Source of the DNA: Catellatospora vulcania
GTDB lineage: Bacteria; Actinomycetota; Actinomycetes; Mycobacteriales; Micromonosporaceae
Reading direction: 5' to 3'
Length of the DNA: 64,000 nucleotides
NCBI RefSeq assembly: GCF_009720385.1
Contig: NZ_WARX01000026.1
Coordinates: forward strand, 1 to 64,000
A program made the translations under genes and the position numbers. Positions 5,812-35,276 of this stretch are shown here, one piece after another. The notes beneath the pieces were generated by a model, which saw only the letters and a program-made list of their open reading frames with translations, did no database searches and was not told the DNA's origin. Within the stretch, counting starts at the first letter, position 1; the number at the start of each line of letters is the position of its first letter.

Positions 5812-6332
5812 CCGCCGGCCGGGTCGCGCCGCCAGAACTGGCGCGGGGCGTAGCCGTCGCGGCGCAGCCAGTGCTCGGTGTACACGATGCGCTCAGCCTC
5901 GATGACCACCAGCGGCCCGGCGGGCGGCTCGTCGAGCGGGCGGGACCGCTCGACGTGGTCGTTCTGCCAGCGGAAGGCCTCCCAGTAGTGGTCGAACTCC
6001 GCGTCGCCGCGGTCCAGCGAGCGGGCTTGCCCGAAAACCTGCGCGCCCCGGCTGCTGGCCTGGCCGACCAGTGGCGCGAACACGCCGACGGAGACCCTCG
6101 GGTCGGCGGCGAGGTTGCGCATCTTCGGTGAGGTCGCCACGGCCGTGAACATCAGCGCGAAGTCCAGGTGGTAGTAGCGCACCGGGGTGGCCAGCGGGCC
6201 GTCCGGGCCGGTGGTCGCCAGCACGCACATGTTCTGCGAGGACAGCAGGTTGAGGATGCGCTCGGAGAGCCGTTCGCGCGGCAGCCGCCGGGCGGGCGAC
6301 GGCCCGGCGAGCCAGGGGTTCGTCACAGCCAT
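5796..6332 (-). CDS. Pyridoxamine 5'-phosphate oxidase-fold (PPOX) protein
   Basis: 178 residues, a single split-barrel flavin-binding-type domain: the early strand MCVLATTGPDGPLATPVRYYHLDF, then KMRNLAADPRVSVGVFAP, a pattern shared by PNPOx-like and F420- or FMN-dependent actinobacterial proteins. A short tail (YTEHWLRRDGYAPRQFWRRDP) may close the active site. Substrate and cofactor cannot be read from sequence. The ATG at 6332 lacks a clear ribosome site; an in-frame GTG 15 bases upstream is an alternative. The stop codon lies inside the convergent lipoprotein gene. Confidence 0.8.
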   Translation of the reverse strand: MAVTNPWLAGPSPARRLPRERLSERILNLLSSQNMCVLATTGPDGPLATPVRYYHLDFALMFTAVATSPKMRNLAADPRVSVGVFAPLVGQASSRGAQVFGQARSLDRGDAEFDHYWEAFRWQNDHVERSRPLDEPPAGPLVVIEAERIVYTEHWLRRDGYAPRQFWRRDPAGGQPAQ

Positions 6333-30257: not shown

Positions 30258-30289
30258 AGGGCCGCCCCGCCAGTCGGCGGGACGGCCCT
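30258..30289 (-). terminator. Terminator of the ATPase cassette
   Basis: 14-pair stem with one mismatch (30258-30271 / 30276-30289, AGGGCCGCCCCGCC arm), loop AGTC, 12 bases past the ATPase stop. It separates the cassette from trpBA. Confidence 0.7.
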
Positions 30290-30301: not shown

Positions 30302-33300
30302 CTACCGCTTGGCGCGCTCGACGACCTCCTCCGTGGTCAGCGGGCTCTTGGGGTGGTGGCTCAGGCACAGCGAGCCGCGCATCTTGCGGAACGCGAAGCC
30401 CTCCCCCGAGGCGTAGAACTCCCCGGTGCCCAGCCGCGAGATGTCCGGCACGTCAGCCCCCTTGGCCCGCGCCATCTCCCGCGCCGCCTCGATCTGCGCC
30501 GGGGCGTTGAGCAGCCCGAAGAACTGCGTCGCGGCGTTGCCGGAGATCCGGTTGTGCAGCCCCTTGGGCGCCTGCGTGGCGAAGACCAGGCCCAGGCCGT
30601 ACTTGCGGGCCTGCGAGGCCAGCGCCAGCGTGCTCTGCGTACACGCGGTCAGCGGGCCCGACGGGGCCAGCGTCTGCGCCTCGTCCATCACCAGCAGCCC
30701 GCCCAGCGGACGGTCCCCGGCCGGGTTCTTCTTGATCCAGGCGAACAGCGCCAGCTGCAACTGGTTGACGAAGCTCTGCCGCTGCTGCTCCGACGGCAGC
30801 CCCACCAGGCTGATCACCGACACCCGGGCCCGCTTGCCGGGCGCGGGCGTCAGCAGCAGGCCCGGATCCGCCGGCGCACCACCGCCGCCGAACAGGGCGT
30901 CGGTCACCATGGCCGCGGTCAGGTTCTGCGACAGCTCGAACGCGATCTTCTCCGCGTCCTCCAGCTGGCTAACCCCTTCGGGCAGCGAGCTGAGCACCCC
31001 GACGAACGCCCGGATGCCCTCGCCGCCGCTGCGGGCGAAGTGCCGCAGCGCCTCGTTGAGCACCGCCTGCCCGCGTATCGCCTTGGCGGTGCCGCCCTCC
31101 ACCTTCGCCCGCGGCGCGAGGCTGGCCACCGCCGCGTCGATGGCGGCCCCGAACTCGTCGGCGTCGTCGCGGATGGTCGCGAACTCCGGCAGCGGCTGGA
31201 AGGTCAGCGGCCGCCCCGCCTCCCGCCGCGGCGTCCACACCACCACGTCGGTGTGCGCGAGGTACTCCGCCGACCGGGCCGCATCACCGTCGGACCAGCC
31301 CGCGGGCGGCTCCGGCCAGGCGTCGCCGAGCCGGGCCAGGTCGTTGTTGGGGTCCAGCACGATCGTGGACACGCCCTGCAGCGCGCACTCCTCGATCAGC
31401 CGCCGGATCAGCACGGTCTTGCCCGACCCGCTGCCCGCGAAGATCGCCGTGTGCTTGCGCAGCGACTCCAGCTCCAGCCGCACGGGCTCCCCGTCATCGA
31501 ACCCGGTGCCCAGCGTGATGGTGTGCGCGGATGCGGCGACCGTCGGCGGGCGATCCGCCCTGCTCGCCGAGCCGGATCCGGCCGCGACCGCCGAGGCGTC
31601 GCCGTCCACGACATCCCGTGCCACCGCCGCCGCCCCGGCCGACTCGGCCGCACCCGGCGGTGCCGGAACGTCCTCCCCGTCAGGCACGGGCGTCAGGTGT
31701 ACCGCGCGTTCGCGGCGGCGCCCGCCCGCCTCGGCGGCCATGGCGACCTCCGCGACGATCTCGCCGAGCACGGTGCGCAGCAGCATCGTGCGGCCGGCCG
31801 GGCGGCGGGCGGCCAGCCAGGCAGCCAGGCCGGAGTCCCGCTCGGCCAGCAGCTGCCGCAGCGCGGCGAAGGTGCGCAGGTCGTCCTCGCCGATGCTCAG
31901 CCGGGTGCCGCCGTCGGCGGCGAACGCCTTCAGCGACTCCTGCGTCTTGGCGCCCTTGTTCCAGTCGGCGTTGCGCAGCAGGAACAGCTTGCGCTTGCCG
32001 ATACCCCGGCTCAGGCCCGCGCTGGTACGCGCCGCCTGCAGCCGGGACAGGGCTGCGATCGCGTTGGTGTGCGCGATCGCCCGGAACGACCAGTGCTGCT
32101 CGTCCTCGGTGGCCTCGTCCAGGCTGCGGCGCAGCCGGGCGTGCAGCGGCACCTTGCCGCCCTGTGGCGGGTCCACCCGGAAGGCCCGGCCCGCCTCGCC
32201 CAGCTCCTCGATCCACGCGGACAGCCCGGCGGTGAGCAGCGCCGGCATCTCGCCGTCCTCGGTCGCGCCCGCCAGCGCCGGCGACACGTCCACACCCTCG
32301 CGCAGCTCGGCGAAGCGCCGGTCCAGCTTGTCGTCCAGGACCTCGTCGGCGACCGGCACGATGACCTGGTGCTCGGGCTCGGTGAACCCGGCCAGCTCCC
32401 GCACCGTGCCCTCGCGCAGGCAGGCCTGCACGTGCTCATTGATCCGGTTGATGAGCAGCCGCGGGGTGAACACCGTCGCCTCGGCGAAGGCCGCCTCCCG
32501 CACCGGCCACGTCGGGTACGGCGGCACGAAGCCCTGCTCGTCGAAGCGCACCGCGAACCGCTTGGCGACGATGTCGCGGGCGATGTCCGCGCTGGCGATG
32601 CCCTTGAGCGTGACCGGCTCGCGGAACCGGTCGGCGACCGACTTGGTGGCCCGGGTGCGGATCAGCGTCCACGTCGACGGCAGGCAGGCCAGCACCGTGA
32701 GCGTGCGGCGGGTCGTCTGCCGCAGCGCCATCAGGCCGTCCGCGATCTGGTTGATCAGCTGCGTCTGCTCGGCGCTCTCCTCGCCCGTCTCCTTGCGCGC
32801 GGTGCTGCTCCACAGCTGGGCGACGAGCGTGTCGATCTGGTCGATCGCCACCACCGTCGGGCCGGTCAGCGCCAGCAGCTGCGACAGCTCCTGCATGACC
32901 AGCTGCGGCGGCTTCTGCACCGGGTGGATGCCCCACTCGTGCCGCTCCCCCGGCTCCATCTCCTGCATCGACTGCAGGTACGTGTACCCGACGTCCTGCG
33001 CGGCTGGGTTGTCGGCCGCCCCGAGCAGCGCGAGCGCCCGCGCCGTGTGGTGGCAGGCCATGCCGACCGGCCCGTCGAAGCGGCGCAGCGCACCGGCGAA
33101 CTCGTCCAGGTGCGCCCGGGTCAGCGGGGCCCGCCCGGTCACCGCCGCCGCGGCCTCCGGCGGCACTGCCGCCTTGTCGCACAGCCGGTCCAGGAACACC
33201 GACAGCTGGCTGCCCTGGCCCAGGTGGTCGCGCTGCAGCCCGTTGACCACGGCGAGGGTGGCGCTGGACCAGAACGCCGCCCCGTCCAGCAGCCCGACCA

Positions 33301-33568
33301 GGAAGAAGTAGCCGCCGCCGCGCTGGGTCTGCTCGCGTACCCAGCCCAGCAGGTGCGTCTTGCCCGAGCCGGGCTGCCCCTGCATGGCGATGCCGATGGG
33401 GCTGCCGTCGGGGCTGCGCCGGGCGTCGTCGAGCCCGTGCAGGATGTGCCGCACCACGTCGTCGTGCAGGGCCTCGACGTGGAAGGGCGAGCCGCGCCAG
33501 ACGTCGTCGGGCACCGGGGCCACGTCGAACCGCAGGTTCGACAGCGCCCGGCGCTGGTCGGGGTTCAC
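30302..33568 (-). CDS. Double P-loop ATPase with C-terminal HerA/FtsK-like domain
   Basis: 1088 residues with two complete ATPase cores. Core 1: Walker A GQPGSGKTH (64-72), Walker B VVAIDQID (239-246), of the AAA/KAP-like type. Core 2: Walker A GSGSGKTVL (712-720), Walker B GLLVMDEAQ (957-965) and a sensor FATQAP (997-1001), as in HerA/DUF87 translocases. Residues 500-625 form a helical domain I do not recognise; 625-680 is a Ser/Ala/Pro linker. The GTG overlaps the stop of the winged-helix gene (GTGA). HerA-like motors pair with nucleases in DNA-end processing and in several anti-phage systems; here the partner would be the DUF559-type nuclease upstream. Role is inference. Confidence 0.85.
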   Translation of the reverse strand: MNPDQRRALSNLRFDVAPVPDDVWRGSPFHVEALHDDVVRHILHGLDDARRSPDGSPIGIAMQGQPGSGKTHLLGWVREQTQRGGGYFFLVGLLDGAAFWSSATLAVVNGLQRDHLGQGSQLSVFLDRLCDKAAVPPEAAAAVTGRAPLTRAHLDEFAGALRRFDGPVGMACHHTARALALLGAADNPAAQDVGYTYLQSMQEMEPGERHEWGIHPVQKPPQLVMQELSQLLALTGPTVVAIDQIDTLVAQLWSSTARKETGEESAEQTQLINQIADGLMALRQTTRRTLTVLACLPSTWTLIRTRATKSVADRFREPVTLKGIASADIARDIVAKRFAVRFDEQGFVPPYPTWPVREAAFAEATVFTPRLLINRINEHVQACLREGTVRELAGFTEPEHQVIVPVADEVLDDKLDRRFAELREGVDVSPALAGATEDGEMPALLTAGLSAWIEELGEAGRAFRVDPPQGGKVPLHARLRRSLDEATEDEQHWSFRAIAHTNAIAALSRLQAARTSAGLSRGIGKRKLFLLRNADWNKGAKTQESLKAFAADGGTRLSIGEDDLRTFAALRQLLAERDSGLAAWLAARRPAGRTMLLRTVLGEIVAEVAMAAEAGGRRRERAVHLTPVPDGEDVPAPPGAAESAGAAAVARDVVDGDASAVAAGSGSASRADRPPTVAASAHTITLGTGFDDGEPVRLELESLRKHTAIFAGSGSGKTVLIRRLIEECALQGVSTIVLDPNNDLARLGDAWPEPPAGWSDGDAARSAEYLAHTDVVVWTPRREAGRPLTFQPLPEFATIRDDADEFGAAIDAAVASLAPRAKVEGGTAKAIRGQAVLNEALRHFARSGGEGIRAFVGVLSSLPEGVSQLEDAEKIAFELSQNLTAAMVTDALFGGGGAPADPGLLLTPAPGKRARVSVISLVGLPSEQQRQSFVNQLQLALFAWIKKNPAGDRPLGGLLVMDEAQTLAPSGPLTACTQSTLALASQARKYGLGLVFATQAPKGLHNRISGNAATQFFGLLNAPAQIEAAREMARAKGADVPDISRLGTGEFYASGEGFAFRKMRGSLCLSHHPKSPLTTEEVVERAKR

Positions 33569-34227
33569 TCGGCCTCGATGGTCAACAGGTGCTTGTCCTC
33601 ACCGCCGATGTGGATCGCGGCGGCGCGGTCCTCGTCGGTGAGGGTCTTCTGGTTGTCCTCGGGCACCAGCACGATGGTGCGCGCGACCGCCATCTTCATC
33701 AGCGCCGCGTCGACCTCGGCGGCCGACACCCCGGCCAGCTCCCGGCGCAGGTCGGTCAGGCTGACCCAGGCCTGCGGCTGGTCGGCGAGCTTGTCGTACG
33801 CGGTGCGCACCCGCTTCTCCAGCCCGCGCTTGACCACCGGCTTGATCTTGACCACCGGCTGCGCGGCGGGCGGCGGGACGCTGGCGGTGAACAGGTCGGG
33901 CAGGCTCAGCTCGGCCCGGCGCAGGTAGCGGTCCACCGCACCGAGCAGCGCGTGCAGCGCCGGGTACGCGGGCCCGGCGCCCTTGACGAAGTCCTCCGTC
34001 AGTTCCCGCTTGCACTGCGCCCAGCCCTCGTCGGTCAGCTCGTGCACCAGCGCGCCCTTGGCCCCCTTGCGCTTGGTGGCGAACCCGTTCTCGACCAGGG
34101 TGCGGCTGTCCGCACCCTGGATCGAGAAGCCGTCATAGCGCTCGCGCAGCTCGCTGTTGGAGACTTCACGGGCCTCCGACATGAGCAGCAGCAGGCACGC
34201 CTTCTCCGAGGGCTTGAGCTTGGTCAT
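33565..34227 (-). CDS. Winged-helix-like hypothetical protein of the ATPase cassette
   Basis: 220 residues. The N-terminal half resembles a winged helix (LKPSEKACLLLLMSEAREVSNSELRERYDG, then KGALVHELTDEGWAQCKREL); the C-terminal half has another short helical repeat (AWVSLTDLRRELAGVSAAEVDAALMKM) that looks like a second winged helix, then HIGGEDKHLLTIE. The middle (about 95-135) has a Pro/Lys-rich linker. No enzyme motif is visible. ATGA and GTGA overlaps on both sides couple it to the nuclease and ATPase, so it may bind DNA or bridge the two. Confidence 0.72.
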   Translation of the reverse strand: MTKLKPSEKACLLLLMSEAREVSNSELRERYDGFSIQGADSRTLVENGFATKRKGAKGALVHELTDEGWAQCKRELTEDFVKGAGPAYPALHALLGAVDRYLRRAELSLPDLFTASVPPPAAQPVVKIKPVVKRGLEKRVRTAYDKLADQPQAWVSLTDLRRELAGVSAAEVDAALMKMAVARTIVLVPEDNQKTLTDEDRAAAIHIGGEDKHLLTIEAE

Positions 34228-35276
34228 TGTTTCTCCTTGTGCGCGTCGGTGCGTCGGGAACGGAGGTACTGCTCCAGGTGTGCCAGCACCTGGCCCAGTT
34301 CGGTGAGGACCTGGCGGTTGGTGAACCGCAGCACGGCAAAGCCGTCGAGCTGCAGCAGCACGTCGCGGCGGCGGTCGTGGGCGAACTTGCGGGGGCCGCG
34401 GTGCTCGTCGCCGTCGATCTCGACGGCGCACCGCTCGTCGGGCCAGACCAGGTCGATGACGTAGTGCGGGCGGGCCGCGTACCGCCGGTTCCAGATGCGG
34501 CCGGCCGCCCAGGCCGCCTCGGCCAGCGCCGCCTCCAGCGCGGTCTCCGCGGCGCTGTCCGCCCGCGGTCGGCCCTCGACCGGCGGATACGACAGCGCGG
34601 GCGGGCTCGGCCCGGCGGCGGGAATGTCGCCCGCCGTCGCGACCAGCTCTGCGACGTGCTCGGGCAGCCGCACCGGGCACACCGTGACCCGCCCTGCCGC
34701 GGGCAGGTCGCCCCCGGCCAGCCACACCGTGAAGCCGCCGTGCGCGGCCAGCCACTCCGCGGCGGCGGCCAGTGCCCGCTGCCGCACCGGGTCCAGCCCG
34801 TCGGGCACGTCGACCAGCAGCGCCGCGCCGTTGCGCCGGTAGCTCTCGGCGACGACCCGGGCCAGCCCGGCGGCGCGCACCTCGGGCGCGAAACGGGACG
34901 CGATCGGCTGGCGGCGGGACGGCCGCCCGCGCAGCGCGAGCTCGGCCAGGTCGGCCAGGAAGGGTCCGAAGTGGCGGGTGGTTGCGGCCAGCTCCACCGC
35001 CAGCGCCCGGACCGCGGGCACCCCGCCCCCGCCCGGCCCTTCGAGGTGCTCGGCGGCGGGCAGCCAGGCCGGGAACAGCCGCAGGGCGGCCGTCTCCAGC
35101 TCGTCCAGCGCGGCGGCGGCCACCTCGGCGGCGGTCGGCGCGAGCGGCGGGCGGTAGGTCACCACGGCGGGTGCGCCGTCGGGCAGCGGGGTCAGCGCGA
35201 GCTCGATCGCCTCCGTGGACGCGCCCCGCAGGCGGGTGACCCGGCCTGCCGGCGTATGCGTCCAATGTGGCGTCAT
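34224..35276 (-). CDS. DUF559/Vsr-like PD-(D/E)XK nuclease of the ATPase cassette
   Basis: 350 residues from the ATG at 35276. The last 110 residues are a DUF559-type nuclease: HYVIDLVWPDERCAVEIDGDEH supplies the Asp...Glu-x-Asp metal site and the motif ends RRDVLLQLDGFAVLRFTNRQV. The first 230 residues are an alpha/beta region with no motif I recognise (GAALLVDVPDGLD, GGFTVWLAGGDLPAAG). First gene of the cassette; its stop overlaps the next start as ATGA. Upstream in-frame starts up to 35438 are possible but lack ribosome sites. Confidence 0.82.
   Translation of the reverse strand: MTPHWTHTPAGRVTRLRGASTEAIELALTPLPDGAPAVVTYRPPLAPTAAEVAAAALDELETAALRLFPAWLPAAEHLEGPGGGGVPAVRALAVELAATTRHFGPFLADLAELALRGRPSRRQPIASRFAPEVRAAGLARVVAESYRRNGAALLVDVPDGLDPVRQRALAAAAEWLAAHGGFTVWLAGGDLPAAGRVTVCPVRLPEHVAELVATAGDIPAAGPSPPALSYPPVEGRPRADSAAETALEAALAEAAWAAGRIWNRRYAARPHYVIDLVWPDERCAVEIDGDEHRGPRKFAHDRRRDVLLQLDGFAVLRFTNRQVLTELGQVLAHLEQYLRSRRTDAHKEKQ

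Follow-up and report, generated by a model that had tools for sequence, protein, structure and literature searches.

Background

Operons joining an ORC/Cdc6 ATPase, a HerA ATPase, winged helix-turn-helix (wHTH) components and a restriction endonuclease (REase) were predicted by Rakesh, Aravind and Krishnan (2024) as "HerA/FtsK capture systems", proposed to intercept invader DNA, with fusions to STAND and TIR mentioned (PMC10853773; here and below, statements on cited papers refer to the passages of their text that were accessible). BREX-related HerA/FtsK capture systems are added in PMC12839542, and Trypco1 and effector-swapping conflict systems are defined in PMC7159879. Here we analyse a three-gene cassette in a 64,000-nucleotide stretch of the Catellatospora vulcania genome (contig NZ_WARX01000026.1, positions 1 to 64,000; hereafter the window). 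On its minus strand lie, in this order, the genes for a DUF559 nuclease (NUC), a tandem winged-helix protein (WH) and a fused AAA+/HerA ATPase (ATPase), each junction overlapping by 4 nt, which bears out the claim of the first-pass annotation of the window that the three form one co-expressed-looking unit.

Gene order, conservation, exchange of partners, patchiness and a domain shared with phages were observed directly. The reading we prefer, with a probability of about 0.72, is that the cassette would be an accessory anti-invader system, in which WH and ATPase form the sensing or activating core and NUC is one exchangeable effector. The defence function as such we infer from sequence.

Comparison with described systems

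The cassette family shares four features with the capture systems (PMC10853773): an Orc/Cdc6-family AAA+ ATPase, here the N-terminal module of ATPase; a HerA/FtsK ATPase, found as the first-pass annotation had proposed in the second half of the same protein (Pfam DUF87, E 4e-11; HerA structures, E down to 2e-10 in profile searches); a wHTH component, which in a subset of those systems is a separate protein of 2-4 wHTH and here is WH; and an active REase, represented in the window by the DUF559 domain with its invariant acidic residues, the activity of which is predicted (loci with other partners are without DUF559). The cassette differs in the fusion of AAA+ and HerA, in WH as an obligate separate gene, in the use of DUF559 as nuclease and in a Gln in place of the Walker B Glu of the AAA+ module, and the AIPR, PDC-M02, TIR-KGGVGR, Mrr and Trypco1-trypsin replacements described below are not named in the accessible text of PMC10853773. 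Since these four features are present and a literature search of open papers, supplements being outside its reach, found no paper on this gene set, the cassette is, as judged from its predicted domains, a variant of the ORC-type HerA/FtsK capture systems. The three-gene architecture had initially been reported as unrecognised, which does not hold, as operons of ORC/Cdc6, HerA, wHTH and REase had already been predicted (PMC10853773). The same search found no paper linking DUF87 with DUF559 and no published functional test of this system.

Further systems share parts of this make-up. HerA-DUF4297 and HerA-SIR2 likewise combine a HerA ring with a variable nuclease partner and are activated by assembly, whereas the HerA of HerA-DUF4297 has neither a fused ORC AAA+ module nor a WH gene and its nuclease is DUF4297 (PMC11291478); membership was rejected, as neither Pfam nor PADLOC showed a stand-alone HerA accompanied by DUF4297 or SIR2. 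The best PADLOC match of the HerA half, and of this half only, is mad8 of MADS (5e-21, 73.5 bits), and MADS was rejected because, of the cassette proteins scanned against PADLOC, neither WH nor NUC has a match to any model. DndFGH also has a HerA/FtsK domain, an REase and a multi-wHTH partner, but DndH is about 1700 aa long and carries other domains (PMC10853773), and none of the three cassette proteins matches a Dnd model in PADLOC.

Within the HerA half of ATPase the named motif positions are invariant in 41 of 41 sequences, except G712 and S713 (at least 90%), and matches to HerA/TraD/terminase-like motors were also obtained. The Walker B motif of the AAA+ module reads D-Q-x-D, with the Gln fixed at Q244. 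As this Gln occupies the position which we take to hold the catalytic Glu in ORC proteins, the AAA+ site is probably one of ATP binding with slow turnover, acting as a switch or clamp more than as a motor. The capture systems are described with an inactive REase that separates the AAA+ core from the C-terminal wHTH (PMC10853773). After the AAA+ module of ATPase, the helix and strand order of residues 437-531 in the modelled secondary structure is REase-like; Pfam gave no REase match for residues 450-640, and fold searches, directed mainly at residues 2-482, did not pick out an REase fold for residues 437-557. In NUC, residues E244, D275, E286, D288 and H292 are invariant in 30 of 30 aligned sequences, and the conservation of the nuclease Asp/Glu, which the first-pass annotation had named as a check, is thereby confirmed. 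The only Pfam families matched by NUC are DUF559 and MTES_1575.

WH and ATPase with different partners

Of 7993 candidates scored in the protein search with ATPase, at least 1942 are homologues at E <= 1e-5. For the analysis of neighbourhoods, 116 loci with an ATPase match were taken from coded genomes, plasmid records and named genomes (up to 80), and removal of the duplicates L070, L071 and L110 left the 113 loci used for all counts. WH adjoins ATPase in 109 of them, the exceptions being three contig ends (L064, L127, L137) and one broken ATPase frame (L125); among 106 called pairs, 73 have a gap of -4 nt between the two genes and 21 a gap of -1 nt.

NUC stands upstream of WH in 54 of the 113 loci, which range from Catellatospora to Tsukamurella and Methylobacterium. 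Elsewhere the partner is a KGGVGR ParA-like protein with a TIR-like region (10 loci, a TIR gene preceding it in nine), PDC-M02B (nine loci, preceded by DUF4365/PDC-M02A in eight), AIPR in downstream position (nine), a Trypco1 gene with a trypsin-like WD40 protein (six), a STAND-like TPR protein (four, and also upstream of NUC in two more), a CBS protein (two) or Mrr (one). Partner families were named from one or few representatives each by Pfam and PADLOC, the latter giving matches to AbiU (8e-112), PDC-M02B (3e-104), PDC-M02A (2e-55) and mREase_IV (2e-116). L060 was classed by eye as trypsin and L120 through a six-frame match as NUC, and in seven loci (L059, L062, L064, L090, L127, L130, L137) the partner was not judgeable or none was seen. 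One of the two CBS partners is separated by a gap of 442 nt, and one STAND-like partner lies 214 nt off. Two loci of different partner class occur together in 6 of 61 relatives (G003, G009, G025, G027, G029, G032). Thus, of the defence reading already offered by the first-pass annotation, an accessory and plausibly defensive role stands, but not the nuclease as a fixed core, NUC being one of several partners.

A quick tree was calculated from 106 ATPases, those of 105 loci and that of the window (8 of the 113 loci lie outside it; no bootstrap, long branches flagged). On it the partner label changes 17 times, compared with a possible minimum of 8 and a mean of 47 after shuffling; a FastTree run gave 15 changes. 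NUC alone accounts for 9 changes, 6 of them forced by well-supported branches, while the TIR and the trypsin partners each form one single group. Because partner type clusters on the tree in this manner, partners are mostly inherited and exchanged only sometimes.

Some loci carry additional genes. At L043 (12740-17297) a divergent operon of Abi_2, AAA_15, an unknown and a GmrSD-like gene lies beside the core; PADLOC, applied to the operon of this locus, matches PDC-M55A and C, and gene sizes at L099 (2184-6685) and L062 (2921-5800) resemble those of this operon. Two genes upstream of an AIPR-type locus (L056, 3-4803) resemble, by eye, Wadjet-type condensin components.

Patchy distribution and ruined copies

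At E <= 1e-100, 27 of the 150 genomes sampled from the order, and 12 of 47 genera, have ATPase; within one genus, 4 genomes have it and at least 13 do not. The possibility that homologues always occur alone in the core genome, which the first-pass annotation had set against its own proposal, was not borne out, as the family is not universal and is often accompanied by defence-type partners. NUC is present in 21 and WH in 29 of the 61 relatives, all of them among the 27 ATPase carriers and two genomes with ruined cassettes; some NUC copies of G012 and G036 are on contigs in which ATPase was not seen. The family also occurs in alphaproteobacteria and on a plasmid of Methylobacterium. In one Tsukamurella record, which is filed as a plasmid (L068, 9541-18579), the cassette lies between the ribosomal-protein genes rplN and rpsQ, together with a DEAD/DEAH helicase gene and a VapBC pair.

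Among 11 Catellatospora genomes ATPase is present in nine, in six of them beside trpB and in three elsewhere, with an empty trpB site. The remaining two (G002 and G007) hold a ruined cassette at the trpB site, in which NUC has lost its catalytic part, with end points differing between the two, and of ATPase only the first 29 residues are left in G007, while none of it was detected in G002. Between these ruins WH is whole and open in both (L066, 8558-9748; L150). Between the two genomes its dN/dS is 0.33, compared with 0.06 for trpB, from 19 and 19 changes, some of which may be older than the loss.

The WHC domain in phage proteins

WHC, the C-terminal domain and most conserved part of WH, is common to WH and virion proteins. 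The WH profile detected eight stray WHC copies in 5 of the 61 genomes, all five among the 27 carriers, an association which within the family alone (26 carriers out of 37, by hand count) is not significant (p about 0.15). They include a portal protein with WHC near residues 1150-1220 (L156, 1968-7172; Pfam Phage_portal, 8e-25) and a 699-aa protein with two WHC copies next to portal and terminase genes (L155, 5262-7358). Gordonia phage Mollymur was the only match among named phages, with WHC in its tape-measure protein (L162, near 6001-6249; E of 2e-5 to 3e-8 with three of four queries and 8e-4 with the fourth). A scan of viral contigs yielded 11 loci, one of them the L155 prophage; WHC in phage proteins was likewise seen in L163-L173, and a profile built from cassette WH proteins alone detects WHC in L172 (1e-37), L165 (8e-32), L168, L167 and L162. 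In L165, L167 and L172 the domain is carried by portals, and in L164, L166 and L170 by two or three small genes in tandem per contig. No ATPase or NUC profile match was found near phage WHC, in contig stretches of up to about 16 kb, and PHROGs gave no match for the small tandem protein or for a 413-aa protein of L173.

Portal- or MuF-fused domains of phage polyvalent proteins are believed to be brought into the host, where they would counter its defence (PMC5512222). WHC occupies a comparable portal-fused place, although the domain and a link to HerA are not described in the accessible text of that paper. The phage WHC may be a decoy, a trigger or a plain DNA-binding domain. We tentatively raise the possibility, itself rather doubtful, that WHC is an arms-race interface, either because actinophage virion decoys poison the WH-ATPase core or because WH derives from a phage domain and senses the entering particle; in both cases the modular core would serve as a general platform for at least seven effector kinds. 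As a decoy, WHC on portal C-termini, on the tape-measure protein or from the small tandem genes located close to the head module would enter with the DNA. If so, WHC in virion proteins would be a direct lead to the trigger or to counter-defence. Short or HTH-bearing, cellular-looking proteins with WHC were also seen (L154, 4815-5855; L157, 4244-4552; L158, 883-1242; L161, 4766-5074).

Possible mechanism and alternative explanations

In the preferred reading, WH and the ORC-like AAA+ module would recognise or clamp invading DNA or a component of the entering phage particle, the HerA domain would form a DNA-translocating ring, and the WH-ATPase core would activate its partner, NUC cutting DNA here and a TIR, AIPR, Mrr or protease effector acting in relatives. 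Because the same core is paired with nucleases and with TIR, AIPR and protease-type partners, the role shared across loci would more likely be sensing and activation than feeding DNA to one nuclease or dedicated DNA-end resection. If this is correct, actinomycetes use one two-gene core of tandem winged helix and ORC-HerA ATPase to drive nucleases as well as TIR, AIPR and protease-type effectors, and a computationally predicted HerA class becomes testable via one modular cassette. Several observations weigh against it. The window is no defence island: trpB and trpA follow directly downstream, an unnamed gene and an M23 peptidase gene lie upstream, and transporter genes also flank the cassette. 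The MADS/HerA similarity in PADLOC is low, the clustering of partner type on the tree is strong, and the trypsin partner is divergent, sharing no direction with the core. In addition, 11 of the 113 loci, 7 of them from Mycobacterium or Mycolicibacterium, have WH and ATPase without a recognised partner, so the pair may work alone.

The cassette could instead be a housekeeping machine for DNA repair or end resection of the HerA-NurA type, with DUF559 as the resecting nuclease. In favour of this are the union of a HerA domain and a nuclease in one operon and the seven mycobacterial loci, which suggest a stable solo role. We consider this improbable: a Pfam search found no NurA match among the cassette proteins, the family is patchy inside genera and ruined in two of 11 congeners, and TIR and AIPR proteins, neither of them resection nucleases, are among the swappable partners. 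A function of WH-ATPase in the segregation, conjugation or packaging of integrated elements, as their motor and with the partners as passengers, is likewise improbable. Motor matches of HerA/TraD/terminase type, the occurrence on a plasmid and in alphaproteobacteria and WHC in phage portals would agree with such a function, yet ATPase had no match in 50,697 phage records or in a viral-contig scan for close relatives, and the chromosomal site beside trpB is kept in six congeners. WH could instead be a MarR-like transcriptional autoregulator of the nuclease-motor operon that stands outside the machine; this we find rather unlikely, as WH lies inside the operon and is tied to ATPase as tightly as any subunit, and its best conserved domain recurs in virion proteins, which is unusual for a repressor. 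Autoregulation is compatible with an anti-invader cassette and hence only a partial rival.

Gene layout in the window

Positions of the cassette genes, their domains and the adjacent hairpin in the window.
Feature	Position	Strand	Remarks
NUC gene	34224..35276	-	350-aa protein; conserved N-terminal region (about 1-230) and DUF559 nuclease domain
DUF559 / PD-(D/E)XK domain of NUC, residues 263-338	34263..34490	-	Pfam E 6e-13; PDB 3hrl_A E 6e-7
WH gene	33565..34227	-	220-aa tandem winged-helix protein; constant neighbour of ATPase
WHC, C-terminal domain of WH, about residues 128-217	33577..33846	-	recurs in phage proteins
ATPase gene	30302..33568	-	1088 aa: AAA+ / REase-like region / HerA
ORC/Cdc6/TnsC-type AAA+ module, residues 1-400	32369..33568	-	Walker A G67-x-G69-K70, Walker B D243-Q244-x-D246
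Candidate inactive REase, residues 437-557	31898..32260	-	helix-strand-strand-strand-helix-strand; secondary structure of model only
HerA motor, residues 685-1088	30305..31516	-	Pfam DUF87; Walker A GSGSGKT 712-718, D962-E963, R988, Q999
GC-rich strong hairpin, possible terminator without T tract	30258..30289	-	between ATPase stop and trpB

The cassette had further been described as closed by its own terminator; the strong hairpin after the ATPase stop agrees with this in part, but as it has no T tract it is only a possible terminator. The closest named match of ATPase among the matches listed is from Catellatospora sichuanensis (92%).
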